DNA from: Aerococcus sp. HMSC062A02 | Lineage (GTDB): Bacteria > Bacillota > Bacilli > Lactobacillales > Aerococcaceae | NCBI RefSeq assembly: GCF_001809535.1 | Contig: NZ_KV797925.1 | Span: forward strand, 1 to 64,000 | Direction of reading: 5' to 3' | Length of the DNA stretch: 64,000 bases | Part shown: positions 22,453 to 52,079 of the stretch, one piece after another | Position numbering within the stretch: the first letter of the stretch is position 1 | How the letters are laid out: each line of letters starts with the position of its first letter | Notes under the pieces: generated by a model | Database searches by the model: none | Seen by the model: only the letters and a program-made list of their open reading frames with translations | Told to the model about the DNA's origin: nothing | Position numbers and translations under genes: made by a program

Positions 22453-23415
22453 CTACGCTTCAGCCAAGGCGACTTGGGCTGGACATTCTGTCGTCAATTC
22501 GCCTCCACAAGATGAACCAAAACCAGCTGTACAGCCATAACAATAATCGCGGAAGAGGATCTCCCGTCCAAGATCTTCTTTATCAATCACATCGGTAATT
22601 GTATCTCCCGTACTAATCGGCAGGTTAGACATTTGATGGAAGTCACAATCATAGAGTTGGCCGTCGTAACCCACTGACAGCTGGGACCGGCACATCAGAT
22701 TAGGTACCGTCACGGGATTAAAGGCATTGCGAAGGATATCCATATACTCGTCATAATAGTCCATATCATTTAGGAAATCTTCAAAGTAGCCCATAGGCAG
22801 GTTGGTAATGGTATATAGATTCGTAAATTCAATGCCATACTGACCTAAGTGGTTGCGATAGTCTACCGCCAAGGCGTTTTGCTCTGGGGGTAAAGTGGCC
22901 CCTAGCGGATTATGGACGAGGTTTAAAGGTCGGTCTTTATCAATGCCATAGCCATAAGAATTCAGTTCTTGGAGGACCTTGATTAACTTCTTAAAGACCC
23001 CGCTACCGCGTACGACATCCACATTGTCTTCAGTGTAACAAGGCATCGAAATAAAAATCGTCACAGGATATTTTTGATAGAACTCACGCATTCTTTTATT
23101 CAAAAAAGTCCCATTCGTTCGGACAATCACTTCGTCCACATAGGGAGCCCCTTTCTCTGCCAGATAGGTGAAGCCTGGGTGCATAGTAGGTTCTCCCCCT
23201 GTAATATCCAGGGTCGTCACTTCATCATGGGCCTTGAGAAATTCAATGCAGGCATCCATAATCTCGGGCGACATCATTTCATTCTTCGAGTCGCGCATCA
23301 CGTGACAGTGCCGGCAACGCAGGTTACATACCTTACCAATATTCACTTGCAGAGTAGTAATTGCTGAGGTTTTCCGGTATTCAGGTTCGATCCGGTCAAT
23401 AAAATCACTTGACAT
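22453..23415 (-). CDS. Radical SAM protein, ArsS-like (rSAM/selenodomain type)
   Basis: A 320-residue radical SAM enzyme. The [4Fe-4S] site is CNLRCRHC (CxxxCxxC, residues about 31-38), followed by the SAM-binding GGEPTMHP. The C-terminal domain carries DYCYGCTAGFGSSCGGE, the Cys-rich signature of the radical SAM/SeCys family (TIGR04167, which includes arsenosugar protein ArsS). Some relatives have selenocysteine in that motif; all positions are Cys here. ArsS joins the 5'-deoxyadenosyl group of SAM to dimethylarsenic. With selenoprotein, rhodanese and glycosyltransferase genes in the same operon, a chalcogen acceptor is equally plausible. No arsenite methyltransferase gene is in the window. 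Confidence 0.8.
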   Translation of the reverse strand: MSSDFIDRIEPEYRKTSAITTLQVNIGKVCNLRCRHCHVMRDSKNEMMSPEIMDACIEFLKAHDEVTTLDITGGEPTMHPGFTYLAEKGAPYVDEVIVRTNGTFLNKRMREFYQKYPVTIFISMPCYTEDNVDVVRGSGVFKKLIKVLQELNSYGYGIDKDRPLNLVHNPLGATLPPEQNALAVDYRNHLGQYGIEFTNLYTITNLPMGYFEDFLNDMDYYDEYMDILRNAFNPVTVPNLMCRSQLSVGYDGQLYDCDFHQMSNLPISTGDTITDVIDKEDLGREILFRDYCYGCTAGFGSSCGGELTTECPAQVALAEA

Positions 23416-23427
23416 TATTTTCTCCTT

Positions 23428-24330
23428 TCATTTTTGCTGATCATCGAGGGACAACCAAGTCTGGTAGAGATGATCTTTTAGTGCCTCTTTTTTAGTAATT
23501 CTAGGTGTCGTGACCAGCGTCTGCTGGTAAGGCTTAGTCACCACATACTGGGTCGGGTCCTGGCTCGGGCAGTGAAGGCGTCCTCGAGCTAGGCCTTCTA
23601 CACTCAGCCAATATCTCTCTTGGTCTAAAGAAAAGTATTCTGGATGAACGAGGCAGGCCGCTGCCAGGCTATCCCAGTTATAGAAGCCTTTGATGCCATA
23701 CTCTAAGTCATTATCGCGAAACCAAGGCGCTGAATATTTTTGAATCATTTGGACAATAGGGCCTTCCACTCGGTCGAAAGCTGCTTCATATTGCTCCTGG
23801 GTAAAGAGCAGGTCCAAGCAATGATTGCCTGTCATGACACGGACATTATGCCCCTTGGTTAAGACTTGATAGGCAGCTTGAGGATCACAGGAGAAATTCA
23901 ATTCCAACATTTCCTGCTTGGCGAAGTTCAGGGGCGCCGTAGTGCCTCCCATCAAGCTAAAACCAGCAACTTGATCAAAGAAATCTGGATTAAGAAGAGA
24001 AGCTCCCATAAGATTCGTCAGAGATCCTGTCGCCAAGACATACAAGTCTCCTGCATATTGGGCAGCCAAATCAGCCAGAAGACGACTAGCTGGATTGAGA
24101 TAATCGCCACAAGCCTGACCGCCCTTAGCATAGGGCAGATCAAGCTGAAGCGTCTCTAGGAGATGCTGGGTATCCCGGTCCACCAGGTCGATCCCCTTAT
24201 TCCCGAACGTCGATGTCACAGCGATCAGCTCCACTTCAGGACAGCCTAATAAATAAAGCAGCGCCATCCCATCATCCACATCACGATTAGCCGTAAAAAA
24301 AGTATTGTCAAAATCAATGGCTACTTTCAT
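23428..24330 (-). CDS. Atypical nucleoside hydrolase-like protein
   Basis: A 300-residue protein of the inosine-uridine nucleoside hydrolase fold. The usual N-terminal DxDxGxDD calcium motif is split: DFDNT at residues 6-10 and DVDDG at about 17-21, with a short insertion, so ligand geometry may differ. The core TGSLTNL strand, SLMGGT and the FNWDSLAA-like YNWDSLAAAC element near the C-terminus are present. If active, it would release a base from a nucleoside. In the radical SAM operon this would fit removal of adenine from a 5'-deoxyadenosyl product. It is distinct from the standard nucleoside hydrolase at 43.5 kb. It overlaps the upstream membrane-protein gene by 17 nt. Confidence 0.65.
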   Translation of the reverse strand: MKVAIDFDNTFFTANRDVDDGMALLYLLGCPEVELIAVTSTFGNKGIDLVDRDTQHLLETLQLDLPYAKGGQACGDYLNPASRLLADLAAQYAGDLYVLATGSLTNLMGASLLNPDFFDQVAGFSLMGGTTAPLNFAKQEMLELNFSCDPQAAYQVLTKGHNVRVMTGNHCLDLLFTQEQYEAAFDRVEGPIVQMIQKYSAPWFRDNDLEYGIKGFYNWDSLAAACLVHPEYFSLDQERYWLSVEGLARGRLHCPSQDPTQYVVTKPYQQTLVTTPRITKKEALKDHLYQTWLSLDDQQK

Positions 24331-24748
24331 CGGTTAAACCCTTTCTAGACCTAGCCTTTATCCCAGCAATGATCATTTGGAAGAGGCTTAGAGCAAGTAG
24401 AAGCAAATAGTAGAGATAGTAGGTTTCCAATTGGTCGAAAGTCCAGAATAAACTATAGAACGTAAAGGCTAAAGTCAAGACTAGCCCTCCATAGGCTGAT
24501 CGCCGTTTGTAACGAAGCAGAAGTATAACGGCCACTATAAGACACAAGCTAGGCAGTATCCAGGTCCAAAAATCATGATAAAGTTCAGCTTTCCTTGAAC
24601 GATAGAGTACTGACCGCATAAAATTCAAATGATTCGCGTAAAAACCACTAACTTGCGTCATTAAAAAGAGCGCGAGAACTTGTAAGCCACGCAAACTTGC
24701 GATCACTAGCTGGACAGGCCTTGACTTAATCAAGGATTTCCACATCAT
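24314..24748 (-). CDS. Small membrane protein of unknown function
   Basis: A 144-residue protein with four probable membrane segments (residues about 15-35, 62-80, 87-107 and 108-128) and positively charged ends. I do not recognise the family. It overlaps the rhodanese lipoprotein gene upstream by 23 nt and the nucleoside hydrolase-like gene downstream by 17 nt, so it is translated within the selenium-linked operon. The overlap makes an independent function unlikely; it may anchor or assist one of the neighbouring envelope proteins. The long overlap at its 5' end leaves the exact start uncertain. Confidence 0.6.
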   Translation of the reverse strand: MMWKSLIKSRPVQLVIASLRGLQVLALFLMTQVSGFYANHLNFMRSVLYRSRKAELYHDFWTWILPSLCLIVAVILLLRYKRRSAYGGLVLTLAFTFYSLFWTFDQLETYYLYYLLLLALSLFQMIIAGIKARSRKGLTDESSH

Positions 24749-25772
24749 TTCCGCGGGGATCTCCTACTTGTACCGGGTACTTGCTTGGATTTTTTTGATG
24801 GTTTAAATTCCATTCATACCAACCCCCATCTTGGACCGAAATATCATGCCAGCCTGCTTGTTTAGCAACAAAGAAGGCTGTAGTATTACGCCAGCCTGTT
24901 CCACAATAGAATGTTACCGGTTTATCTTGACTAATTCCCCATTCTTCCCAATCAGCAAATACTGCTTGTGGCTCACGAATTGTGCCATCTTCATTGGTTA
25001 GATAGTTGACGTCAGCTGCTGTTTCGCTGGCTTTGGCCCAGACTGCTCCTTTGATCTCGCCTGCCTTGTCAATGTAGTCATAACCTGATGTTTCACCAAT
25101 AAACTCAGGCCAAGAGCGAACGGAAGCAATCACCAAGTTTGGTTGGGACTCCTTAGCTGCTAGGAGGTCATCCGACGTCTTAATATAGGCTTCGGGCCGA
25201 CCTGGATAATCCCCGCCAAAATCTTTAGCTGCGGTAACTTGAGGACTTTCCTCAGTAAGTTCATAACCTGCCTTCTCCCAGGCTGCTTTACCACCGTCAA
25301 TAATGTGCACTTCATCTACACCCAGGTAGTAAGCGGCAAAGGCCACACGGGAAGCCGCATTGACATCCTCACCATAAACAAAAAGTGGTGTATCCTTGCT
25401 TACCCCCTTAGCGAGAAAGGCTTTGACCAAGTCATCATCTGTTAAGAGATTCCAATCACTCTCTTCTGTCTCAATCTCCATCGTATCCATGAGTTGAGCA
25501 CCTGGCAGGTGGCCTTTTTTGTAGGCTGCATCACCATAACCTGCCTCTAGAATCTTGGCTGTATCCTGCTGGTCAATCTGGTCTTTAGCCCAAGCGGCAT
25601 CCACAAAAATATCCTCTTTCTTGCTTTCGCCTGCTTTGACCAGATGGGTCTCCTCTTTTGAAGGAGGGGCTGGTTGCGTTGAGTCGCTAGCTGTTGAACT
25701 TTGCCCTTGGCAAGCCCCTAAAAGAAAACTAGCTAGTCCACATACTGCTAAAATTTTTTTAGTCCAATGCAT
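24726..25772 (-). CDS. Rhodanese lipoprotein, YnjE-like
   Basis: A 348-residue extracytoplasmic sulfurtransferase. The signal peptide ends in LGAC (Cys20), then a Ser/Thr-rich linker. Two rhodanese domains follow: the first (about 55-175) has no active Cys (VYGEDVNAA), the second (about 195-340) has YCGTGWRNT. The CGTGWR active loop resembles that of E. coli YnjE, which is encoded near TVP38-type genes and selD. The protein would transfer sulfur or selenium on the outer face of the membrane. It is followed by the small membrane protein gene in the same operon. Confidence 0.8.
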   Translation of the reverse strand: MHWTKKILAVCGLASFLLGACQGQSSTASDSTQPAPPSKEETHLVKAGESKKEDIFVDAAWAKDQIDQQDTAKILEAGYGDAAYKKGHLPGAQLMDTMEIETEESDWNLLTDDDLVKAFLAKGVSKDTPLFVYGEDVNAASRVAFAAYYLGVDEVHIIDGGKAAWEKAGYELTEESPQVTAAKDFGGDYPGRPEAYIKTSDDLLAAKESQPNLVIASVRSWPEFIGETSGYDYIDKAGEIKGAVWAKASETAADVNYLTNEDGTIREPQAVFADWEEWGISQDKPVTFYCGTGWRNTTAFFVAKQAGWHDISVQDGGWYEWNLNHQKNPSKYPVQVGDPRGNDVEILD

Positions 25773-25800
25773 CTAATCTTCCTCTCTTCTTCTCAATTAC

Positions 25801-26478
25801 TTATTTATCGCGGTAAAATTTTTGAATACTTTCAATCGACTTTCCCTGCCTGAATAGGGCTTGGGCTCTTTGCATCTTAAATAGGGTTCTCAGATAGCCC
25901 TTAGCTTCAAAGCGTCTCGCTGAGGTATAGATCTTCTGCTCTGCCACCCGGCAATAAACACCAGCCTCCTTGGCCCGAATCGAAAGATCATAGTCTTCCA
26001 TTAACGGGTAGGAACGAAAGCCTCCCAAAGCCTGGTAAAAATCGCGGCGCATATGCATGCCCTGGTCTCCAAAGGCAATATGGCGGTGACTTAGCCGCCA
26101 ATTGGATCCTGCTGCAATCAGACGCATCCGCCAATCCTCACTGGTAAAGCGCAAGGGAAAGGCAGCAAAGGGGACTTCCTGACCATTCTTTTGTACCTCC
26201 TTAAGAGGGCAAGTTTTAAAGAAAGAATCTGCATGCAGAAAGAATAAGATTTCACCCTGACTGGCAAGCACGCCTGTATGAAGCTGTTGCCCCCGCCCCG
26301 GCTGGGAGTTAACGACTGAGTAGCCTGCCGCCCTGATTAAATGGGCTGTACCGTCCCGGCTGCTCCCATCCACGAAGATCAGCTCATGCGGAATATCTGG
26401 GTTAAACACCTCTAAATGATCAAACAATTGATCCAGTTGGTTTCGCTCATTAAAAACAGGAATGATAATACTAATCAT
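25801..26478 (-). CDS. Family 2 glycosyltransferase, rSAM/selenodomain-associated type
   Basis: A 225-residue GT-A glycosyltransferase without membrane segments. The N-terminal SIIIPVFNERNQL, the VDGSSRDGT nucleotide-binding strand, PGRGQQLHTG and the FFLHADS metal-binding DxD-like motif match TIGR04283 ('transferase 2, rSAM/selenodomain-associated'). It would transfer a sugar in the cytoplasm; donor and acceptor are unknown. The gene starts 3 nt after the TVP38-like gene. A second, different associated glycosyltransferase is encoded at the head of the operon, so the pair is the same as in known rSAM/selenodomain neighbourhoods. Confidence 0.8.
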   Translation of the reverse strand: MISIIIPVFNERNQLDQLFDHLEVFNPDIPHELIFVDGSSRDGTAHLIRAAGYSVVNSQPGRGQQLHTGVLASQGEILFFLHADSFFKTCPLKEVQKNGQEVPFAAFPLRFTSEDWRMRLIAAGSNWRLSHRHIAFGDQGMHMRRDFYQALGGFRSYPLMEDYDLSIRAKEAGVYCRVAEQKIYTSARRFEAKGYLRTLFKMQRAQALFRQGKSIESIQKFYRDK

Positions 26479-26481
26479 CAG

Positions 26482-27195
26482 CTAGTTAAGGGATTCCTTT
26501 TTCTTCTTGCGGTCGGTATAGACCCGGCGCAGGAGGGCAACTAAGACGCTCAAAGCGAATAGGATCAACAGACCCGTCACAAGCTTCTGAGCGCCACCTG
26601 TCAACATACCACCTACATAAGAATAAATAATGGTCGCCGGTAATTGACCGATCCCTGTGGCAATAAAATAACCCCAAAAGCCCATCGATGTTAAGCCTGC
26701 TGCATAAGATACAATATCAAAGGACATAAAGGGCAGCAAGCGGGCCACTAGGATGGTCTGCATGCCATAGCGGTCAAAAAAGTTTTCGATGCTTTCTAAG
26801 CCCCGCTTAGTCGTAAAGCGAACAACCACATCACGCCCTAAGATGCGGGCAATGTAAAAGCATAGGGCAGCCCCCACCATCGCACTCGACCATGACAAGA
26901 TAGCTCCCTGCCACCAACCAAAGAGATTAGCATTGGTCACCGTAATCAAGAAAGCAGGGAGCGGGGCGATCACTGCCGTTAAAACCATTAGGAAAAATGA
27001 AATAAGTGCCGCATAGCCCCCGTATGAATCGATAAATTCGCGCACTTCATCAAAATTCCCCGTTGCAAACATCTTAAAGACCTGGTTGATCCATTCCCTA
27101 ACTGGGGGGATCAGAAAATAAATAGCCAGGCAAAGGCCCACAATACCTAGCAATAACCAGCGTCGCTTACTGGCTTCGTTAGTTTTCTTCGTCAT
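26482..27195 (-). CDS. TVP38/TMEM64 (DedA-like) membrane protein
   Basis: A 237-residue integral membrane protein with about six hydrophobic segments. The SNARE-associated/VTT domain is seen in LTAVIAPLPAFLITVTNANLFG, split around the re-entrant helix, and in GRDVVVRFTTKRGLE and ARLLPFMSFDIVSYAAGL. DedA-like proteins move lipids or anions, and E. coli relatives YdjX/YdjZ share a cluster with the rhodanese YnjE. Here too the gene is next to rhodanese lipoprotein genes. GGAGGAGAC precedes the ATG. A hairpin with T run separates it from the upstream rhodanese gene. Confidence 0.8.
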   Translation of the reverse strand: MTKKTNEASKRRWLLLGIVGLCLAIYFLIPPVREWINQVFKMFATGNFDEVREFIDSYGGYAALISFFLMVLTAVIAPLPAFLITVTNANLFGWWQGAILSWSSAMVGAALCFYIARILGRDVVVRFTTKRGLESIENFFDRYGMQTILVARLLPFMSFDIVSYAAGLTSMGFWGYFIATGIGQLPATIIYSYVGGMLTGGAQKLVTGLLILFALSVLVALLRRVYTDRKKKKESLN

Positions 27196-27214
27196 CTGTC
27201 TCCTCCATCTTCCA

Positions 27215-27252
27215 ATAAAAAGAGCGACCCAATCTAAGAAACTGGGCCGCCT
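27215..27252 (-). terminator. Internal terminator-like hairpin in the selenium operon
   Basis: Minus strand: AGGCGGCCCA, loop, TGGGTCGCT, then CTTTTTATT. It would allow partial read-through from the selenoprotein half to the radical SAM half. Confidence 0.6.
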
Positions 27253-27286
27253 AAAATTAACTACCCAACTAGATCAGAGACTTAAA

Positions 27287-28048
27287 TTATTTCTCTGACA
27301 AATCAAAGCCGTCCCATTCCTTAGTACCTTCTGTGGCATTGATGGTGTTGTAACCTTCATCTGTTAGGGCTTGAGCGATGGTATTTGATTTATTACCGGA
27401 GTAGCAGTAAGTCAAGATAGTTTTATCTTTAGGAATATCAGCTTTCTTCGCATCCAAGTCGTCAACTTCGATATTTACTGCCCCTTTAACGTGGCCCTTA
27501 TCGTAGTCCTTAGCCTTACGTGCATCGATGATGTAGTATTCGCCATCATTGTTGTCAACCATTTCTTGGAATTTGTCTCCTAGCACATAGCCAACTTGAG
27601 TCATTGTTGAATAGTCATGGTCTTTAACCCCGTCAGCATTGTAAACTTCTTCAAAGCCGTTTTTAGCCAAGATGTCTGCCCCTTCCTGGCTCTTGTTCCC
27701 AGTGTTGCAGATCGTTACTACATTTTCTTTCTTATAGTTGCTTAAACGATCGAGGTTATTTTCAAGTTCATCGACAGGGATATTGATAGCCCATTTCACA
27801 TGGCCTTCTTTGTATTCATCTTCTGGACGAACGTCGATGACGAGGTAGTCTTCTTTCTTCTTGTCATCAGCTAAAGCTTCGTCGAGCTCTTCGCCGGATA
27901 TAGTTTTAACTTCAGCCGCTTGGTCAGCTGTAGCTTCTGTTTGAGCATCATTTGAACCGCTAGAAGCAGAGTCTGTGTTATCTGCACAAGCAGCTAGTGA
28001 CAATGAAGTAAGAGCAGTTAAACTGAGTAATAATAATTTTTTTGACAT
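27287..28048 (-). CDS. Tandem rhodanese lipoprotein with two active cysteines
   Basis: A 253-residue lipoprotein with lipobox LAAC (Cys21) and a short Ser/Asp-rich linker. Two complete rhodanese domains follow: about 50-145 with VTICNTGNKS and about 155-250 with LTYCYSGNKS. Both keep the active Cys, unlike most tandem rhodaneses. The protein is outside the membrane and could pass sulfane sulfur or selenium between domains. The selenoprotein gene lies 21 nt upstream with the same orientation, which is the closest link between a rhodanese and the predicted UxxC protein. AAAGGAG precedes the ATG. Confidence 0.82.
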   Translation of the reverse strand: MSKKLLLLSLTALTSLSLAACADNTDSASSGSNDAQTEATADQAAEVKTISGEELDEALADDKKKEDYLVIDVRPEDEYKEGHVKWAINIPVDELENNLDRLSNYKKENVVTICNTGNKSQEGADILAKNGFEEVYNADGVKDHDYSTMTQVGYVLGDKFQEMVDNNDGEYYIIDARKAKDYDKGHVKGAVNIEVDDLDAKKADIPKDKTILTYCYSGNKSNTIAQALTDEGYNTINATEGTKEWDGFDLSEK

Positions 28049-28069
28049 AATTTTTTCTCCTTTAAATTT

Positions 28070-28855
28070 TTAAATTTCCCATTTCTTCAATTCTTCGGCA
28101 CCGCCATGAATGGCAAAATCGAGCAGAGCGGTGAGGCCCTGGCGTTCGGTTTCTAAGTCAAAAGCTTGCCCCGCAAAAGTATGGCCCAGGGCAAAGGGGG
28201 TCTCAAGCATGCGAGGTGGGCGGGCTTTTTCCGCCACATTAGGCAGGTGCATCATGGAAGCCGTGCGTATGCCCCGGCTTTCAATTTCGCGCTGAATCAG
28301 CCCCACGGACTGGTGGCAAATATATCAGCCAGGAGACAGCAAGGCAATATCGACCTGGTCCTCCTGCAATTGGTCAGCGATAGCAGGTGCCGTCTTATTC
28401 ATGAGCTTCTTAACCTGGGGGATGTAGCCCATCAAACCGAAGTGGTGAGGAGCTACTTCTCCAATCTTACCCTCCCTAGCGAATTGCCGGAGGATATCCA
28501 GGGGGAAGACCAAGTTAATATCTTCGAGGGCATCTCGAATATCATAGTGTTCGTGGTTTACCGTAAGGTCCTCATAGTCCACATCTCCGGGAATAATACG
28601 GAAAGTTGGATCTCCCTTCTTCGTCTCAAAAGGCGGATCCGTCTTCAAGCGGACCCCCGCCGTGGTAATGAAAGCAACTCGGGCTTCATCTAGTGCCTTA
28701 TCCATATGCGCAATTTTGGGTGCCGAATTGATGGTCACGACCATGTGCTGGGCGACACGACTAATAACAACTTCTTTTAAACTTCGGCGATTTTTTTTAA
28801 CGATAAAAATCCTCCTTTCTTTATCCAGGCAATCTTTTAGCGATATAGTCTTCAA
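28070..28855 (-). CDS. Selenoprotein of the GrdB/PrdB-like family, UGA read as Sec (paralogue 2)
   Basis: One reading frame interrupted by a single UGA at 28325-28327. Read through, it gives about 261 residues with the motif LLSPG-U-YICHQSVG, i.e. UxxC at residues 177-180 counted from the TTG at 28855. Cys-containing relatives of the 'selenoprotein B' family have CPVCHQ at this place, which supports Sec. The N-terminal part shows FITTAGVRLKTDPPFE, FRIIPGDVDYEDL and FPLDILRQFA; the part after UGA shows the family's REIESRGI and PPRMLETPFALGHTF. A SECIS-like hairpin follows the UGA. The start is unclear: AAAGGAGG at 28812-28819 has no ATG, GTG or TTG at a proper distance. Partner thiols and substrate are unknown; selenium-dependent redox or reductase chemistry is inferred. 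Confidence 0.75.
28298..28312 (-). promoter_or_regulatory. SECIS-like hairpin after the UGA
   Basis: Minus strand: CAGTCC, GTG loop, GGGCTG. The loop begins 19 nt after the UGA, exactly as in the paralogue at 50.6 kb. Small apical loop and position fit bacterial SECIS elements recognised by SelB. Confidence 0.65.
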
Positions 28856-30329
28856 TCATCTGGATAAAGTCAGTACTTAAAAAGCGTGAAATGACCTGGT
28901 AAGTTTCCTGGTTACGCGCCAATTTATCAGCTTTATTATATTGCACATAGGCCATGGCGCACCAAGTCAAGCCCCGCAGGCAAGTGAAGACCAAGTACTG
29001 GTCGAGCTTAGCCTGGTCAATCGCAATCGGAGAGTGGGCATCATAGGCCTGGATGAAGCTTTCTAAAGACTGGTCATCATAGAGGTAGTCAGTCTTCCAA
29101 AGCGTCGTTGTCGGCGCTAAGAAATGTCCCAAATCCTGTTCACGTTCCCCAATCAGCGGCTTCTCCCAGTCAATGACATAGGACTGGTCGCCTGGGTTGA
29201 TCAGGAAATTAGAGGCATTGAGTTCCGTATTAATGATACAAGGATTAACAAGCTGGGCGCTGTGGTCATAGACCTTTAAGCCATCTAAGAGCCGCTGAAT
29301 CCGCTGAGTCACTTCCTCCGACCGCCCCTCCCAGGACCGGTAGTGGGCAAACATGGTCTCAAACTCTTCATACATCACCACAAAGGGTTGGCCCACATAA
29401 ATGAGATGGTCTGCCTGCTTAGGATCTTGTTGGTGAATTTGCGCCAATAATTCCGCTGCAATCTGGCTATCCGTCTCATAGTCCAGCTGGCGACCAGGCA
29501 GGAAGGCTTCCACTAAATAACCCGCCCCAATCAAGGGGTGGTAGTCACAAAGCGCCAAGGGTTTGGGCGTTACGCCACTCGCTTCGAGCGCCTTCAAAGC
29601 CCCGTACTCATACTGGATCTGCTGGTCGAGATGCAATTGTGAGCCCAAAGCAATCCGCAACAATTTCCTGCCTTGGTCAAAGATAAAATTGGCATTATAT
29701 TCCCCTTGGGCTAGGAAAGTCGCCTCAGGGTCCCCCGTCAAGATAGCCGCAATATCTTCTTTATCATCAATATCACGGATGGCTGGCAGGAGTTCATAAC
29801 TGATCCCGGCTTGGTCAGCATGTGAAAGCGTCGCCGCCAAAACAGAGGTATGGCCATAACTTTCCAGGGCAAATAGGTCGGGATAATAGGCGGACATGCC
29901 GATCAGCCCATAGCCCCCATCCAAGCTAGGCGCCAAAACCAAGTCGCAGGAATCCAAATAAGTGAAGGCTTGGTCGACCTGGCTAGTAGATAAATCATAA
30001 AGATCTGACCCCATAAGAGCCACCTGGTCATAACCCCGGTTGAAACCATCTCGAATCGCCCGAGACATACGTTCACCTAGGCTATCGCCCTCCTGCCAAA
30101 ACACCGCTTCCTGGTCAAGGTTTAAAAAGTCACCCAAGTCATAGCCGGCTTGGTCAGCCGTTAGCCAGAAACAGAGGTCTGCTTGGCTCGCCTTAGCCCG
30201 CTGATAATTCATCTCTAAGAGATACTGGCTAAGCGCTTGGGTTTGATCGACCGTCAAGAAATCAGACAGACGACTCTTCGTCTCGCCTTTCAGTGGCAAG
30301 CGAGTCATTATAATTAATAGTTTTTTCAT
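28821..30329 (-). CDS. Fusion of rSAM/selenodomain-associated glycosyltransferase and phosphotransferase-like domain
   Basis: A protein of about 502 residues. Residues 1-200 match TIGR04282 ('transferase 1, rSAM/selenodomain-associated', CofC-like): LLIIMTRLPLKGETKSRL, GDSLGERMSRAI, LMGSDLYDL, DGGYGLIG. Residues about 205-500 resemble aminoglycoside/choline phosphotransferases; the Brenner HxD loop reads NTELNASN and the following DxD-type strand reads VIDWEKP, so the catalytic Asp position carries Glu. Activity of this domain is therefore uncertain. The start is the ATG of MKKLLIIM; the frame is open upstream across the structured leader and its terminator, which is not coding. It has no clear ribosome-binding site. 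It is the first gene of the selenium operon and overlaps the selenoprotein frame. Confidence 0.75.
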   Translation of the reverse strand: MKKLLIIMTRLPLKGETKSRLSDFLTVDQTQALSQYLLEMNYQRAKASQADLCFWLTADQAGYDLGDFLNLDQEAVFWQEGDSLGERMSRAIRDGFNRGYDQVALMGSDLYDLSTSQVDQAFTYLDSCDLVLAPSLDGGYGLIGMSAYYPDLFALESYGHTSVLAATLSHADQAGISYELLPAIRDIDDKEDIAAILTGDPEATFLAQGEYNANFIFDQGRKLLRIALGSQLHLDQQIQYEYGALKALEASGVTPKPLALCDYHPLIGAGYLVEAFLPGRQLDYETDSQIAAELLAQIHQQDPKQADHLIYVGQPFVVMYEEFETMFAHYRSWEGRSEEVTQRIQRLLDGLKVYDHSAQLVNPCIINTELNASNFLINPGDQSYVIDWEKPLIGEREQDLGHFLAPTTTLWKTDYLYDDQSLESFIQAYDAHSPIAIDQAKLDQYLVFTCLRGLTWCAMAYVQYNKADKLARNQETYQVISRFLSTDFIQMIEDYIAKRLPG

Positions 30330-30360
30330 AGCTTTTGTATGTAAAGGTTTCCATATAAAC

Positions 30361-45431: not shown

Positions 45432-46178
45432 TCAAATGGACAAGGAGGCCAGGAAATGACAGATATCTTGAACTAGACAGTTCTTGACGGAATCCCCCTC
45501 TAAGTAATGGTTAGCTTGAGGATAAATATGGAGGCTAGGCTTTCCTTTAGTCGACAAGAGCCGGCACAAACGCTCGGCGACTTGGACAGACACCACTTCA
45601 TCCGCTTGACCATGCCCTATAAAGACAGGCTGGTCAAGCGAAGCCAAGCGCTCAAAATTTTCATCCATCCATTGGTTCATCCCACTCAAAACCTGGTCAA
45701 ATTCTTCAAAGAGCTCCTGAGCCTGGTCACGGTCAGCTACGGTCGGCACACCTTCCAAAGACCGATAGTATTTTTGGCGCATAAAATAAGGAATCCGAGT
45801 CTGTCTCAAATCCGTCAGTATCGGACACGATAAACTAATGACAGCCTGCACTTGGTCTGTTTCACAAGCCAGAGCGAGGGCCAGGAAGGCACCTAGGGAT
45901 AAGCCTGCAGCGACCACATTCTGGTGACCTTCTTTCTTTAAAAAGCTCAGAGCCGAGCGGGCATCCTCTAAATAAGTAGACAATGGAGCTGTTAAAACCA
46001 TTTTTAAATCGCCTTCTTGGTGGCTGCGATAGTAAGGAAGGTATAGGGCATACCCCTCCTGTTGCAAGCTTTCAGCGAGCGACTCTACTTGATTGGGACT
46101 ATCCCCTAAAGAATGCATCAGTAAAATAGCCGGTTTATCAGCCTGGCCTGGCCAATAAGACGTCCTTTTACGCGTCAT
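45432..46178 (-). CDS. Alpha/beta hydrolase overlapping the E2 gene
   Basis: A protein of about 248 residues, Est30/carboxylesterase-like. The nucleophile Ser is in AGLSLGAFLAL, the acid in GHGQADEVVS and the His in QANHYLEGDS; the oxyanion strand is LLMHSLGDSPNQ. Its substrate is unknown. The start is the second ATG (46178), which has AAGGGG at a good distance, so it overlaps the end of the E2 gene by 11 nt and is the last gene of the pyruvate-dehydrogenase-like operon. That coupling suggests it acts together with the complex, for example on acyl thioesters; this is inference. Confidence 0.75.
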   Translation of the reverse strand: MTRKRTSYWPGQADKPAILLMHSLGDSPNQVESLAESLQQEGYALYLPYYRSHQEGDLKMVLTAPLSTYLEDARSALSFLKKEGHQNVVAAGLSLGAFLALALACETDQVQAVISLSCPILTDLRQTRIPYFMRQKYYRSLEGVPTVADRDQAQELFEEFDQVLSGMNQWMDENFERLASLDQPVFIGHGQADEVVSVQVAERLCRLLSTKGKPSLHIYPQANHYLEGDSVKNCLVQDICHFLASLSI

Positions 46179-47844
46179 TTGCATGGTCCCCTTCTAATAA
46201 TTCGGCTTCCATCTGAAAGAGGAGGCTAGGTTTCTCAATCATATCTTTAATAAAGTTAATAATACGAACGATCTTATCCCGGGTAACAATCCGCGCATCC
46301 ACAACTAGGGTCATCGCTTTCAAAGGACGAACCACCATCTCGCCTTCTCGAACGACCACTTCATCTTGACTAGCCGCCAAGCCTAAAATAGCAGCATCAG
46401 GGTAGTGAATGATCGGAACAAAACCATCTACAGGGCCATACCCCGACAGATCGGTCAGTGTAATGGTTGATTCTGAATTAGTTTCATAGTTAAAAATACG
46501 TTCTTTTTTGACTTCATATTCTAGCTCAGCCAAACGTTTTTCAATCTGAGCTAGCGACATGTCTTGGGCATCCTTGACTACCGGGGTAAATAAGCCTTGA
46601 ACGGTATTCATTTCAATCCCGACATTGACATAAGATTTAAAACGGAAGACAGAGACCACATCATCAATGCTGGCGTTCAGTTCGGGATAACGATGAGCCG
46701 CAATACATAGCGCTTTAATGAAATAAGGGAGGTAGTCTTGCTTACCTAGACGGTCACCCTTTTGGATTTTTAGATAGGTTCTCAGTTCAGTCATATCGAC
46801 TTTAACTTGAACAGAGAAAGGAGGAACTTTGTGATGGGTCATTTCGAAGCGAGAGGCATTATATTTACGAATATAAGTTTCTTCACGCCCCTGCTCTTCG
46901 TCAGGCCGATGAGTCCAATAGCCTGGGTCTAGTTCATTAATCCAACGATAGTTCCATTCCCGTTCGCCCACCGCATGGTCAAGGGCCATATCCACCATTT
47001 CCTTGGTCACAATCCCGTCCTCATTAACCGGCAAACGCGACAGGTCTAAATGATTAGCCACTGCATATTGGCGAACAGCCGGCGCAGCTTTAACGGTTTC
47101 GGCGCGTTTCTCTAATTCTTCCTTAGGCAGTTCATTAGCCACATGGACAGGAATGGGTTGGCTGCCATCTTCTGAATGCATAAAGTTAGTCTGCAAGGGC
47201 TCTAAATAGCGCTGCTTACGCTGGCTAGCTGCTTTTGGTTCCCCTTGTTGGGCCTGGCCTTGTTCAGCCATGAAGGTTTTATCAACCTGGGGTGCTTGAA
47301 CTTTTTCTTTAGGCTGCTGTCCATGGACGCGCTGGAAGATTTCAGCAGCTGATCCGGTTTCTTCAACGATCAAATAATCGCCATCATCAGCTGCTTCTGC
47401 TGGGCTCACTTCTTCTTGGTCTTCTTTTTCCGCTTGATCTGAAGGTATACCGCTTGTCTCTTCAGTCACTGCTTCATTTGACGCCAATTTTGCCTGGTCG
47501 TTTTCTGGGGCGGGAGCGAGTTTTTCATCTGCTGAAGCTTGAACAATCTGTCCGTCTTCTGCCACTCGACCCGCATCACCACCGGCTCCTGTTCTCAAGT
47601 CAGACTTGCCGTCGTCGATCAAAAGCACCTTTTCATTGCGGAAGATATAATCGCCTAATTCAATATAGAATTTTTCGATGACACCATCCACTGGAGAAGC
47701 TAGCGCTCCTGTTGCTTTGTCCGTTTCCATTTCAGCAATCACGTCACCTTCCTTGACGCGATCGCCCACTTGTTTATGAACGGCTACCATCTGAGCCTCG
47801 AAGATCCCCTCACCAAGAGGAGGTAGTTTTACTAAAAATGCCAT
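46168..47844 (-). CDS. pdhC: Pyruvate dehydrogenase-type E2 with a degenerate acyltransferase motif
   Basis: A 558-residue E2. One lipoyl domain (Lys43 in ETDKATGAL), a very long acidic Gln/Glu/Asp-rich linker (about 85-250), a peripheral subunit-binding domain (about 260-300, PAVRQYAVANHLDLSRL) and a CoA acyltransferase-like domain (about 330-550). In the last, the catalytic motif normally written DHRxxDG reads VDARIVTRDK: the His, the second Asp and the Gly are all replaced, although the flanking pattern is kept. Acyl transfer by the usual mechanism should therefore fail or be altered. E1 alpha and beta genes are upstream; no E3 gene follows. Confidence 0.85.
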   Translation of the reverse strand: MAFLVKLPPLGEGIFEAQMVAVHKQVGDRVKEGDVIAEMETDKATGALASPVDGVIEKFYIELGDYIFRNEKVLLIDDGKSDLRTGAGGDAGRVAEDGQIVQASADEKLAPAPENDQAKLASNEAVTEETSGIPSDQAEKEDQEEVSPAEAADDGDYLIVEETGSAAEIFQRVHGQQPKEKVQAPQVDKTFMAEQGQAQQGEPKAASQRKQRYLEPLQTNFMHSEDGSQPIPVHVANELPKEELEKRAETVKAAPAVRQYAVANHLDLSRLPVNEDGIVTKEMVDMALDHAVGEREWNYRWINELDPGYWTHRPDEEQGREETYIRKYNASRFEMTHHKVPPFSVQVKVDMTELRTYLKIQKGDRLGKQDYLPYFIKALCIAAHRYPELNASIDDVVSVFRFKSYVNVGIEMNTVQGLFTPVVKDAQDMSLAQIEKRLAELEYEVKKERIFNYETNSESTITLTDLSGYGPVDGFVPIIHYPDAAILGLAASQDEVVVREGEMVVRPLKAMTLVVDARIVTRDKIVRIINFIKDMIEKPSLLFQMEAELLEGDHANDA

Positions 47845-47860
47845 AGATTATTCCTTTCAT

Positions 47861-48862
47861 TTATCCATTAACTGTTTCCCTGATAGCTTGCAAGATATCC
47901 TCTGCACCTGGCAGCCAATCATCTTCGACCTGTTTGAAGGGGAAAGAAGTATTTGGAGCTGATAAAAAGCCAATCGGTCTTAATAAGTCATAAAATGCCC
48001 GACGAGCCATCTCTGATACAATCCGGTTACCAAGTCCAGCAATCCCCTGGGCCTCTTGAACCACTAGCAGGTGCTGGGTCTTTTGTACCGAACGCAGGAT
48101 GGTCTCATAATCTATCGGGTGGACAATTCTTAAATCAATCACTTCCACCTGGATGCCTTCCTCAGCAGCGCGCGCCGCAGCTTCTTTAGCATAGCGCACC
48201 ATCGCACCATAAGTCACCAGGGTCAAATCTTCCCCTTCGCTAAGAACTTTAGCTCGGTCGAGATCAATGCTATAGCTTTCTTCAGGCACCTTCTCACGGA
48301 ATGACCGGTACAAGAGCATATGCTCCAAGAAGATCACAGGCCCATCATCCCGGATAGCAGCCGTGAGCAAGCCCTTAGCATCGATTGCTGAAGACGGCAC
48401 GACGACTTTCAGACCTGGAAACTGGGCCAGCAAGCCTTCAAAGTTATCTGGGTGAAATTCTGGGGTCCCAACGCCCCCACCAAAGGGCGCTCTCACCACA
48501 ACGGACATAGCTAGGTGGCCACCAGTCCGATAAGAGGCCCGAGCCATTTGGTTGATACTATCCATAGTCTCAAAGATAAAGCCTAAGAATTGGATTTCGA
48601 TCACGGGACGGAAGCCTTGGTAGGCTAGACCAATTGCCATCCCCGATATACCGGACTCAGCTAAGGGCGTATCGAGGACGCGCTGCTTGCCAAATTTTTC
48701 TTGGAGGCCTTCTGTCGCGCGGAAGACGCCCCCATTCTTTCCAATATCTTGTCCAAAGAGAACCACTCGGTCATCCTGGGCCATTTCAAGCTCCAAGGCT
48801 TGATTGATAGCTCTCACCATGGTTAAATTATTGCCTGCTTCAGGATTTTTTCGATTATACAT
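47861..48862 (-). CDS. pdhB: Pyruvate dehydrogenase E1 beta
   Basis: A 333-residue E1 beta subunit with typical marks: RAINQALELEMAQDDRVVLFG near the start cut by the family's Glu, the AESGISGMAIGLA segment that carries the TPP-contacting Glu, and the C-terminal QEAQGIAGLGNRI handle. It forms a 2-oxo acid decarboxylase with the alpha subunit encoded 16 nt upstream and feeds the lipoyl group of E2. GAGAGGAG lies before the ATG. Confidence 0.92.
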   Translation of the reverse strand: MYNRKNPEAGNNLTMVRAINQALELEMAQDDRVVLFGQDIGKNGGVFRATEGLQEKFGKQRVLDTPLAESGISGMAIGLAYQGFRPVIEIQFLGFIFETMDSINQMARASYRTGGHLAMSVVVRAPFGGGVGTPEFHPDNFEGLLAQFPGLKVVVPSSAIDAKGLLTAAIRDDGPVIFLEHMLLYRSFREKVPEESYSIDLDRAKVLSEGEDLTLVTYGAMVRYAKEAAARAAEEGIQVEVIDLRIVHPIDYETILRSVQKTQHLLVVQEAQGIAGLGNRIVSEMARRAFYDLLRPIGFLSAPNTSFPFKQVEDDWLPGAEDILQAIRETVNG

Positions 48863-48878: not shown

Positions 48879-49967
48879 TTACTCTGAATCGCTGACTGAA
48901 TCAGGATACTGCCATGCCAAGGTCTCCTCCAAGGTCATTGGGACTTCGCCTTCGCTTTCAGCCATGCCTTGTTTTATGCTTTCGACCGCTTCTTCATAGA
49001 AACTGACTTCTGTTTCTTCTGAATACAAGCCCTTGGCCGTTAAATACTTGCCATAACGCAAGAGCGGGTCTCTGGCCTCCCAATAATCGATTGAGGCTTG
49101 GTCACGATAGCGCATGGGGTCATCGCCCATAGTCGAATGTGGCTCCATGCGGTTGGTGACTAATTCAACCACTACCGGCCCCTTGCCCGAAGCAGCATGC
49201 GTCCTAGCTTCTTTAGCCACACAGTAGCTTGCGAGCGGGTCATTGCCATCAACACGGACACCTGGAATTCCTGCAGCTACTGCTTTTTGAGCCAGGGTCT
49301 GCGCCTGGCTCTGTTGGCTGAGCGGAGTCGAAATCGCATAGCCATTGTTTTGAATAAAAATAACTAGTGGGCTCTGATAAACCCCAGCGAAGTTCATCGC
49401 TTCATAAGTATCCCCTTGTGAGGTGCCCCCATCCCCAATATAGGTGAAAGTCACTTGCGGAGACCCTTTGAGCTTTTGTCCTAAGGCATTGCCCTGGGCC
49501 TGGACTAACTGGGCCCCAATAATGATTTGTGGTAGGGCTGCATGGATACCCTTCTCATAAATAAAGCTCGACCCCTTCACATGCCCCTTAGACCAATTGT
49601 AAACATCAGCAACTGAAGCCCCATGCATTAGCAATTGGGGGATGTCGCGGTAGGAACCAAAGAGAAAGTCCTCCTTTTCAAAGGCGTAATGGCTGGCGAT
49701 CATCGCCGCTTCCTGTCCTTTAGAAGGCGCATAGAAGCCCATCCGCCCTTGCTGGGAATAGGAATTGGTTTGTTCATCAAAAGCTCGTGCAAAGACCATA
49801 CGTCGCATTAATTCAACCAGTTCATTATCTGTTAAATCCGTTAGCAAGTCTGCATTGACGACTTCGCCATTCTTATCAATTGCCTGTAATAACGGGAATT
49901 GTTCAGCAATAACCTGTGACTGTTCCAAATTTAAAATCGTATTTTTTTCTACGTCGCCTTGACTCAT
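48879..49967 (-). CDS. pdhA: Pyruvate dehydrogenase E1 alpha
   Basis: A protein of about 362 residues with the TPP-binding motif TYIGDGGTSQGDTYEAMNFA...NNGYAIS (long motif, key residues GDGG and NNGYA), and the phosphorylation-loop like RMEPHSTMGDDPMRY. It decarboxylates pyruvate or a similar 2-oxo acid. The start is at the ATG of MSQGDVEKN, preceded by AAGGGTGG; the longer frame to 50012 has no ribosome-binding site. It opens the operon and is divergent from a selenoprotein gene. Confidence 0.92.
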   Translation of the reverse strand: MSQGDVEKNTILNLEQSQVIAEQFPLLQAIDKNGEVVNADLLTDLTDNELVELMRRMVFARAFDEQTNSYSQQGRMGFYAPSKGQEAAMIASHYAFEKEDFLFGSYRDIPQLLMHGASVADVYNWSKGHVKGSSFIYEKGIHAALPQIIIGAQLVQAQGNALGQKLKGSPQVTFTYIGDGGTSQGDTYEAMNFAGVYQSPLVIFIQNNGYAISTPLSQQSQAQTLAQKAVAAGIPGVRVDGNDPLASYCVAKEARTHAASGKGPVVVELVTNRMEPHSTMGDDPMRYRDQASIDYWEARDPLLRYGKYLTAKGLYSEETEVSFYEEAVESIKQGMAESEGEVPMTLEETLAWQYPDSVSDSE

Positions 49968-50027
49968 ATTAATGCCACCCTTTTCTATTGAAATAAGACT
50001 TGTGTCATTCATTCACAATTATAGCAA

Positions 50028-50033
50028 ATATTC
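50028..50033 (-). promoter_or_regulatory. -10 element of the pdh operon
   Basis: Minus strand TGCTATAAT, an extended -10, about 60 nt before the pdhA start. The -35 (TAGGCA at a 17-nt spacing) is weak. Confidence 0.45.
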
Positions 50034-50065
50034 ATTTCTTTGCCTAATTCAGTCCCAAGCTTTAA

Positions 50066-50094
50066 TTGACTCTGACCAAGCATTCGACTATACT
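50066..50094 (+). promoter_or_regulatory. Promoter of selenoprotein gene 1
   Basis: TTGACT (50066-50071), 17-nt spacer, TATACT (50089-50094), 45 nt before the ATG. Confidence 0.75.
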
Positions 50095-50139
50095 AGCACT
50101 AGTTGTGAAAGCATGGCTTATTATTAAGGAGGTGATCGC

Positions 50140-50982
50140 ATGAAACATGTTGATTCAACGATGCCCACCAATCATGATCGTCAAACGATTGAAGCGCAAA
50201 CCGCAAAGTCTCATAATCTGGAGGCAATGACCCTCACTTGGAGACAAGCACCACAAATCGCACCGGTGATTGATAAACCCTTATCCGATCTCCGTGTCGC
50301 CATTGCCGCTTCTACCGGTGTCCACCTTAGAACGGATAAACCTTTTATTCTTACAGGAGATGCCTCTTACCGTATTATCCCAGGAGACGCTGATTACCGA
50401 GATCTGACCATCAGTCACGTCCGTTATCCGAATCAGGCTGCCCACCGCGATCTTGATGTTGTCTATCCTTTGAAAACTCTTCGCTATATGGCTGAAAAAA
50501 ATATCATCGGCGAAGTTTCACCAGTCAATATTTCCTGGATGGGACACGTCCCACGCGTTGATGTGCTGATTGAAGTAACAGCTAAACAAATTGCTGAAAC
50601 TTTAGAAGAAAACCAAGTGGACTTGGTGCTCCTCTCGCCTGGCTGATTTATGTGTCACCAGTCCGTGGGATTGGTCGCTCGAGAAATCGAAAGCCGTGGG
50701 ATAAGAACTGTTCTTGTCGGACATTTCCCTCATATTGCTGAAAGGATCCGTCCACCGCGCATGTATATTGTCGATGCCCCACTTGGAGAAACTTTCTCAA
50801 GTGCCTATGACTACCACATGCATGAAGTGATTGTCCACGAAGCTCTCGAATTTGCTCGCACTGGTGGGAGTGAATTAATTTACTACCCACCTTATGTCTG
50901 GAAAGATTATACCGGTCTGGTTCTTCCTGAAGGTGTTGAAGATCCACAACCGATTATTATCAAGAACCCTAGAGCACTATAA
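50140..50982 (+). CDS. Selenoprotein of the GrdB/PrdB-like family, UGA read as Sec (paralogue 1)
   Basis: A single frame of 280 residues if UGA at 50644-50646 is read as selenocysteine: LLSPG-U-FMCHQSVG, i.e. UxxC at residues 169-172. Before the UGA the protein has the family's GVHLRTDKPFIL, YRIIPGDADYRDL, VYPLKTLRYMA and GEVSPVNISWMGH; after it, REIESRGIRTV, ERIRPPRM and APLGETF. This matches Cys versions with CPVCHQ and, more distantly, the catalytic region of glycine reductase GrdB (UxxC). AAGGAGG is 7 nt before the ATG, and a consensus promoter and a terminator make it a single-gene unit. It is divergent from the pdh operon. A function in thiol or selenol redox chemistry is likely; the substrate is unknown. 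Confidence 0.8.
50657..50675 (+). promoter_or_regulatory. SECIS-like hairpin after the UGA
   Basis: ACCAGTCC, GTG loop, GGATTGGT: 8 bp with one G-U pair. The loop begins 19 nt after the UGA. The paralogue at 28.3 kb has the same loop, with a lower stem kept by a U-A to U-G and a G-U to G-C change. Confidence 0.7.
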
Positions 50983-50990
50983 ATTAAATA

Positions 50991-51046
50991 CTAAAAAGGC
51001 TTTGGAATCCCTTCTTTCTTAGTTAGAAGGGGCCAAAGCCTTTTTT
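50991..51046. terminator. Bidirectional terminator after the selenoprotein gene
   Basis: AAAAAGGCTTTGG...CCAAAGCCTTTTTT with an inner CCCTTCT/AGAAGGG stem. It also serves the convergent TDT transporter gene. Confidence 0.85.
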
Positions 51047-51066
51047 GTTAGTCATTCAGCGGTCGC

Positions 51067-51981
51067 CTATTCTGACTTAAAGATCAAGCGCATATAGCCA
51101 TAGAGAACATAGGCAACAATAGCTATAGCGACTACGGTCTCCAGCAATACAAGCAGACTCGTCAGCGCATTATTCCATCCCAAAACGGGCAGGGCTAATT
51201 TCAAAGAGAGAGCCGAAATGACGAGGGGGAAGGTTAAAGCTGCTGAGGTAGGAAAGAAACCTAGACGAATCAATCGAGGAAGTTGGACCAAGATGCTGAA
51301 GTAAAGCAGCTGAGAGAAGACTAGGAGAATAGTCAAGAGCAAGTGAGAAGGTTCTTGGAAACTATTCACATAACCAGCTACTAAGAGGGAGAAAGGCGCA
51401 CATAAGATCGCCGTTGTGAGCTGGGCAGGTTGAGGCAAGTCGCGTAAGCCATAAACCCGGTAGAGCATAAAAGGCATCACGGCAATCCCTCCAATTAAAC
51501 CAAACCAGAACAAAATCTGTCCCAAGAAAAAGTTATCGTAAACAGGGGCCGTCACACTAGCCACCACAAAACCAACAAAAACAACCCCCCAAGAAGGAAA
51601 GACGACATTCATTTTGCGTTGGGGAAGATAGCGTGCGAGATAACGAATCACTAAAACTAAATTAAAGATTAAACCTACATACCAAATCACTTCAGCTAGC
51701 GTGATTGGTAGCTTCAATAAAGGCGTTAAATAAGTTGATAATAACATGATCGACATGGGATAAGTCGGAAAGACAGAAGCTGGTAGGGGGGCACTCATCT
51801 CTTCTTTAAAGGCTGAATAATTCACAAATAAATTCAAGGTATAAGCCATAAAAAGAAGCAAAGCAAGGCCACCCAAAACCAGGCGAATCCCCGCCCCGTA
51901 AGACTGAAGTAAGTTACCCAAAGTCGCTAGCGCCAAAATTAAGCCAGACATAGCGAAAGGCTGTCTCTTCAAATAATTCAT
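51067..51981 (-). CDS. TDT-family transporter (TehA/SLAC1-like)
   Basis: A membrane protein of about 304 residues with ten hydrophobic segments, matching the TDT family that includes TehA (tellurite), Ssu1 (sulfite) and SLAC1 (anion channel). The N-terminal FAMSGLILALATLGNLLQ and the central FPTYPMSIMLLSTYL strand of the pore are characteristic. It would move small anions or weak acids. The start is at the ATG of MNYLKRQ, 7 nt after AGGAGG. It is convergent with the selenoprotein gene; a role for sulfite or selenite is only suggested by that position. Confidence 0.75.
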   Translation of the reverse strand: MNYLKRQPFAMSGLILALATLGNLLQSYGAGIRLVLGGLALLLFMAYTLNLFVNYSAFKEEMSAPLPASVFPTYPMSIMLLSTYLTPLLKLPITLAEVIWYVGLIFNLVLVIRYLARYLPQRKMNVVFPSWGVVFVGFVVASVTAPVYDNFFLGQILFWFGLIGGIAVMPFMLYRVYGLRDLPQPAQLTTAILCAPFSLLVAGYVNSFQEPSHLLLTILLVFSQLLYFSILVQLPRLIRLGFFPTSAALTFPLVISALSLKLALPVLGWNNALTSLLVLLETVVAIAIVAYVLYGYMRLIFKSE

Positions 51982-52079
51982 AAGATTTCCTCCTAAAAAA
52001 GATATACTAATCACTCGAATTATAGCAATAAATGAAGCCAATCACAAATCAGACTTTCCGTTCAAAACATATGGGAATA

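Follow-up and report, generated by a model that had tools for sequence, protein, structure and literature searches.

The gene at 50140-50982 of the window (the whole 64,000-nucleotide stretch of Aerococcus sp. HMSC062A02 DNA analysed here) almost certainly encodes a genuine selenoprotein in which the UGA at codon 169 is decoded as selenocysteine, and by its position in the tree this copy represents the second of two subfamilies of PrdB-like proteins that diverged long ago. The frame runs from an ATG at 50140 to a TAA ending at 50982 with the TGA of codon 169 as its single interruption, exactly where a sequence-only reading had placed the gene; the UGA is at 50644-50646. That reading saw it as another selenoprotein gene from one family, interrupted at the same motif as a paralogue in the window, and in this it was right: the two UGAs share one alignment column (LLSPG-U-FMCHQSVG here, LLSPGUYICHQSVG in the paralogue, 28073-28798, minus strand), and the tree, an orthologue in a second genome, a SECIS-like hairpin and complete Sec machinery all agree (Table 1).

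The genome carries selA, selB and selD (selD itself with a UGA) and a tRNA-Sec of 67.8 bits, above the cut-off and also found by ARAGORN with anticodon tca, which completes the SelA, SelB, SelD and tRNA-Sec set expected for a bacterial selenoprotein. Coding homology extends on both sides of the in-frame UGA: the 111 residues past it, taken alone, match the family profile at 8e-25 (search space 1e5), this gene having been left out when the profile was made. The orthologue in G156, a genome from another family of the same order (55% protein identity), keeps the UGA, and nucleotide identity to it at codon positions 1, 2 and 3 is 0.646, 0.727 and 0.323 after the UGA and 0.637, 0.750 and 0.321 before it, the third positions being near saturation (32% identical) with the same pattern on both sides. 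Because the pattern after the UGA matches that before, the segment beyond it is, on this measure, under purifying selection, i.e. read through, and with the profile match this bears out the earlier view that chance decay explains the interruption poorly. Seeds that excluded the Sec column, run against 84,980 species genomes, found 45 relatives, of which 44 (all the close ones) have TGA followed by YICHQSVG and none of these Cys; the 45th, a more distant acidobacterial sequence, lacks both Sec and Cys at the site (PGDCLSHQ). Among the matches of PrdB or GrdB type listed across 395 genomes of the order, each has one TGA. The default meaning of UGA is stop, from which a pseudogene or an ordinary stop yielding the 168-residue part alone would follow, but selection past the UGA equals that before it and every close relative keeps the codon, which leaves this explanation hardly credible. 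Sequencing error was ruled out because the 44 relatives and G156 have the same TGA, and a genetic code with UGA as tryptophan was ruled out in view of the Sec machinery and of the place of the UGA at a conserved redox position.

Just after the UGA the RNA can form a SECIS-like hairpin with an 8-bp stem, G as the first loop base and 18 nt from UGA to loop. In a gap-free alignment of 42 sequences, 60 bases from the UGA, the stem joins columns 14-21 with 25-32 around a three-base loop that starts with GU, and 93% of the stem cells are paired, against at most 57% for any slide of the stem. Columns 18 and 28 form A-U, G-C or G-U in 42 of 42 sequences with zero mismatches, columns 15 and 31 show a compensatory U-A to C-G change in the 50140 gene and in Salisediminibacterium, and all eight pairs form in the 50140 gene. 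RNAalifold alone returned only a 4-bp stem, the 8-bp stem being tested afterwards as named, and a search of the window against Rfam at the gathering threshold gave no match. The covariation is good support for Sec decoding and not independent proof, because the protein code also constrains these columns.

The expression signals claimed in the sequence-only reading fared unevenly. The ribosome-binding site AAGGAGGTGATC (50126-50137) is indeed perfect, fully complementing the anti-SD at the 16S 3' end, and has a single occurrence in the window (0.01 expected); similarly, the terminator at 50990-51052 is a strong hairpin followed by a T run (-29.1 kcal/mol, z -5.1), which the consensus scan missed because its loop exceeds 8. 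The consensus promoter stood in part: TTGACT-17-TATACT matches the consensus at 10 of 12 positions, but comparable sites are frequent in shuffled sequence and the scan is noisy (6 sites against 2.8 +/- 1.6 in shuffles, about twofold), so the assignment is only suggestive.

Table 1. Features of the selenoprotein locus and its paralogue, in window coordinates
Feature	Position	Strand	Basis or remark
PrdB-like selenoprotein gene, subfamily 2	50140..50982	+	280 aa with one Sec; translated with TGA = U; PF07355 above cut-off; orthologue L117 in G156, 55% identity
In-frame UGA read as selenocysteine U169, U-x-x-C-H motif	50644..50646	+	TGA in 44/44 close relatives and G156
SECIS-like hairpin, 8-bp stem, GUG loop	50657..50675	+	93% of cells paired, 42 sequences
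Shine-Dalgarno AAGGAGGTGATC, full anti-SD complement	50126..50137	+	Sole match in window
Sigma-70-like promoter TTGACT-17-TATACT	50066..50094	+	Consensus match only
Divergent promoter-like site TAGGCA-17-TATAAT with TG before -10, dehydrogenase-like operon	50018..50046	-	Consensus match only
Intrinsic terminator	50990..51052	+	-29.1 kcal/mol, z -5.1, then T run
E1alpha of second PDH-like complex	48879..50012	-	TPP motif GDGGTSQGD...NNG intact
E1beta of second PDH-like complex	47861..48862	-	
E2-like lipoyl protein	46168..47844	-	Lipoyl TDKA retained, HxxxDG lost (DARIVTRD)
Alpha/beta hydrolase	45432..46184	-	GLSLG nucleophile motif; linked to E2-like gene in both genomes
SLAC1/TDT-family transporter	51067..52041	-	Adjoins selenoprotein in both genomes
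Paralogue, PrdB-like selenoprotein, subfamily 1, arsenosugar-type operon	28073..28798	-	UGA at same alignment column; tree placement
In-frame UGA of paralogue	28325..28327	-	Alignment column shared with 50140 gene

By profile, the protein belongs to the GRDB superfamily (PF07355, 24.4 bits against a gathering cut-off of 22), with the match confined to profile positions 266-344 in the C-terminal part; the equivalogs for protein B of glycine, sarcosine and betaine reductase gave about 30-35 bits against cut-offs of 600-800. The nearest curated model is PrdB (TIGR04483, E 1.8e-42), and the U-x-x-C-H motif is as in the true PrdB of the order, both of which would fit a selenoprotein subunit of D-proline reductase. 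That identity is already largely refuted and very improbable: the score of 145.5 bits falls well short of the cut-off of 300 (best E for the whole clade 1.9e-59), the tree sets true PrdB apart as a clade of its own with a branch of 2.95, and D97, N106, F109 and P149, which true PrdB keeps, are all changed here. Nor does the genome have a PrdA, the best match (56 bits, cut-off 700) being a GrdE-like gene. The GrdE-like genes, two in number, lie on contig C8 and might offer a pyruvoyl partner encoded elsewhere, acting with the protein on another amine substrate; each, however, already stands beside its own GrdB, none lies in the window, and the Asp of the HGGYD motif common to GrdB and PrdB is Pro in this copy, so we regard such a partnership as distinctly improbable. 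The lack of PrdA and of a spare GrdE likewise argues against Schiff-base chemistry on amines with a dedicated pyruvoyl partner; such chemistry would depend on borrowing a pyruvoyl subunit, because the gene has none of its own. The selenium region of C8 (240001-259500, L093) contains two GrdB and GrdE pairs, selD with its UGA, a YedF-like gene, selB and selA, and by eye also N-carbamoylsarcosine-amidase-like and hydantoinase-like genes, a possible creatinine-to-sarcosine route.

Comparing both proteins in related genomes, the check suggested with the sequence-only reading, returned the TGA in all 44 close relatives and G156 and, in addition, two separate subfamilies. In the maximum-likelihood tree the 50140 copy and its G156 orthologue form their own clade (100/100, stem 1.01 changes per column), and the operon copy clusters with genes from Atopobacter and Aerococcus MAGs; a first tree, without G156, had left the 50140 gene as a lone branch of length 2.23, which was resolved once G156 was added. 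Both members of subfamily 2 are changed at sites fixed or nearly fixed in subfamily 1 (H95R, D97P, N106D, F109Y, Y136H, Y170F, I171M, F213A and G220S) and carry N- and C-terminal extensions, with the redox residues U169, C172 and H173 retained. Subfamily 2 was detected in one of 76 genomes of the family and in one more among 395 of the order. The earlier suggestion that the two copies have different jobs is thereby supported, from separate clades, different conserved neighbours and diagnostic substitutions. A spare copy doing the same job under separate expression would account for the shared family and active-site motif and for the gene having its own promoter and terminator, but it sits poorly with the depth of the clade, with the changes at residues 95, 97, 136, 170 and 171 in both members, with the differing neighbours and with G156, which has subfamily 2 and no subfamily-1 match; we consider it decidedly unlikely. 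The structure model of the protein (mean pLDDT 91) was uninformative on function: VIA-align gave a best Z of 9.1 to Rossmann-like enzymes of many kinds, Foldseek gave none at E <= 0.001 and a sequence search found no solved relatives at E up to 1. A phage or plasmid origin was rejected: there was no phage match, and among the matches listed the plasmid ones were true PrdB or unannotated proteins at 34-37% identity. No defence or phage family was matched.

The paralogue lies in an arsenosugar-type operon (22453-30350, minus strand) with ArsS, TIGR04282 and TIGR04283 glycosyltransferases (the former fused to a kinase-like domain), a TVP38-type protein, two rhodanese proteins and a nucleoside hydrolase-like gene; no arsM was recognised among its annotated genes. 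No ATG, GTG or TTG stands at a proper distance from its AAAGGAGG, where the codon is ATC (AAAGGAGG-ATTTTT-ATC-GTT), and the gene would either use a rare AUC/AUU start or have lost its start codon. Parts of the arsenosugar-type set are retained beside subfamily-1 relatives in Facklamia, Atopobacter, Tissierella creatinophila and Aerococcus; T. creatinophila (L032), named for creatinine use, has its PrdB-like selenoprotein beside TVP38, TIGR04282 and TIGR04283 genes. In Neobacillus and its kin the gene adjoins a TVP38 protein, a flippase-like protein, a YnjB-type ABC importer and a CDP-alcohol phosphatidyltransferase. Three subfamily-1 loci (L062 7742-15428, L069 3302-10690 and L042 9926-18302) hold TVP38, the YnjB-type importer, the CDP-alcohol phosphatidyltransferase and rhodaneses, a gene content that we take to resemble E. 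coli ydjXYZ-ynjABCDEF, and another relative (L048) has a CMD-family gene.

The surroundings of the 50140 gene are of another kind. The sequence-only reading had set one copy in an operon against one alone; the gene stands alone only in the sense of its transcription unit: it is paired divergently with an E1alpha-E1beta-E2-hydrolase operon (127 bp between start codons), a SLAC1-family transporter gene stands 3' of it, and E2, hydrolase and transporter are kept beside it in the distant genome. There the order is selD-yedF-selB-selA-E2-hydrolase, then desulfurase, selenoprotein and transporter, and the E2-like, hydrolase, selenoprotein and transporter genes span 6 kb, as against about 7 kb in the window. 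The window E2-like protein matches that of G156 at 251 bits and housekeeping E2s at about 100; both E2-like proteins keep the lipoyl site TDKA and have lost the catalytic HxxxDG of classical 2-oxoacid dehydrogenase complexes (DARIVTRD in the window, DYRVVDRK in G156), which four of four comparison E2s keep, and the G-x-S-x-G nucleophile motif of the hydrolase is present in both genomes. No E3 was found among the annotated genes around the window cluster, the housekeeping PDH lies on another contig (C33) with all four parts and its own E3, and none of the genus's 14 other genomes has the second E1alpha, the housekeeping type being as close to it as any copy they hold. The reading of the operon as an ordinary PDH that happens to lie next door was dropped, since G156 has the same E2-like protein and hydrolase. 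From this linkage we lean slightly towards the selenoprotein being the functional partner of a module formed by the operon and the transporter, a neighbourhood argument with n = 2, because only two genomes carry subfamily 2. As a counterpoint, the G156 E2-like protein would have to borrow an E1 pair, because there is none in the 35 kb around that locus.

The best overall explanation, to which we attach about an even chance, is that the selenoprotein may act as the reductase of this small module and be fed by lipoyl arms. SelA, SelB, SelD and tRNA-Sec, with the downstream hairpin, decode UGA169, and the product is a GrdB/PrdB-type protein whose redox site is U-x-x-C-H. In the module, E1 would decarboxylate pyruvate or a similar 2-oxo acid and load the product on the lipoyl arm of the E2-like protein. 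With its catalytic motif lost, that protein is probably unable to transfer the acyl group to CoA. The alpha/beta hydrolase would then free the acid, the remaining dihydrolipoyl arm would reduce the Se-S bond of the selenoprotein in place of E3 and NAD+, and the selenolate would in turn reduce a small substrate. D-proline reductase (EC 1.21.4.1) accepts dithiols, e.g. dihydrolipoate, as electron donor. Direct electron transfer from lipoyl to selenium with release of the acid by the hydrolase is a tentative proposal and rather unlikely as it stands, and the full scheme, a 2-oxoacid dehydrogenase free of CoA and E3 in which the arm of a transferase-dead E2 reduces a Sec reductase and the hydrolase frees the acid, is a shade less likely again; the complex could also draw on an E3 encoded at another locus. 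If true, it would give a 2-oxoacid dehydrogenase a selenium-dependent electron outlet. The protein might instead handle selenium (delivery, storage or reduction of selenium compounds): the G156 copy adjoins a cysteine desulfurase and is itself 4 kb from selA, a homologue of that desulfurase sits in the selD-selB-selA region of the window genome, and relatives in other species adjoin rhodaneses and TVP38 proteins. We think this unlikely, since the window-genome copy lies away from the selenium genes and near the dehydrogenase operon, the GrdB/PrdB relatives studied so far are substrate reductases, and a PrdB/GrdB-type match occurs in 38 of 395 genomes of the order but subfamily 2 in just two, so this subfamily is not general Sec machinery.

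PrdB-type proteins are, by family count, among the most widespread bacterial selenoproteins (PMC9312934, PMC2398784), surface-ocean metagenomes have yielded large counts of 'PrdB' selenoproteins since 2005 (42 and 235; PMC1088965, PMC2398784), and a 2026 inventory of 119 selenoprotein families includes PrdB and GrdB (PMC13188914); in the portions of this literature available to us, that inventory among them, we found no description of the present clade or its two context types. D-proline reductase explains only PrdB-type proteins with PrdA. The present clade separates the PrdB fold from proline fermentation, because it has Sec in every close relative found, no pyruvoyl partner of its own and scores below the curated PrdB model, and the link to an E2-like protein without the transferase motif supplies a concrete candidate electron donor. 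The host is a relative of the lactic acid bacteria with a sizeable selenoprotein set (SelD, two GrdB and two PrdB-like).

Among known systems, D-proline reductase PrdB (TIGR04483) shares with the clade a short (about 240 aa) GrdB/PrdB-type protein with Sec in U-x-x-C-H, whereas the clade scores 145 bits against the cut-off of 300, lacks a PrdA partner, forms its own clade in the tree and reads LSPGU(Y/F)(I/M)CHQSVG in place of LTAGUGTCHRTAV, and the 50140 protein has extra N- and C-terminal segments. The ocean 'PrdB' proteins are likewise PrdB-family Sec proteins; as reported in the parts of those surveys seen, they were assigned by family only and Cys forms exist (110) (PMC1088965, PMC2398784), and none was found in the present clade. 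GrdB, GrdF and GrdH (PF07355), also found in the same genome, share a homologous C-terminal half and the UxxC site, but GrdB, at about 430 aa, carries UxxCxxC and pairs with GrdE, and the match of the 50140 protein is limited as given above. Similarly, the housekeeping pyruvate dehydrogenase shares with the neighbouring operon a lipoyl domain and E1alpha and E1beta that are 54-60% identical, whereas in the window complex there is no E3, HxxxDG is missing from E2 and the genes are followed by one for a hydrolase.
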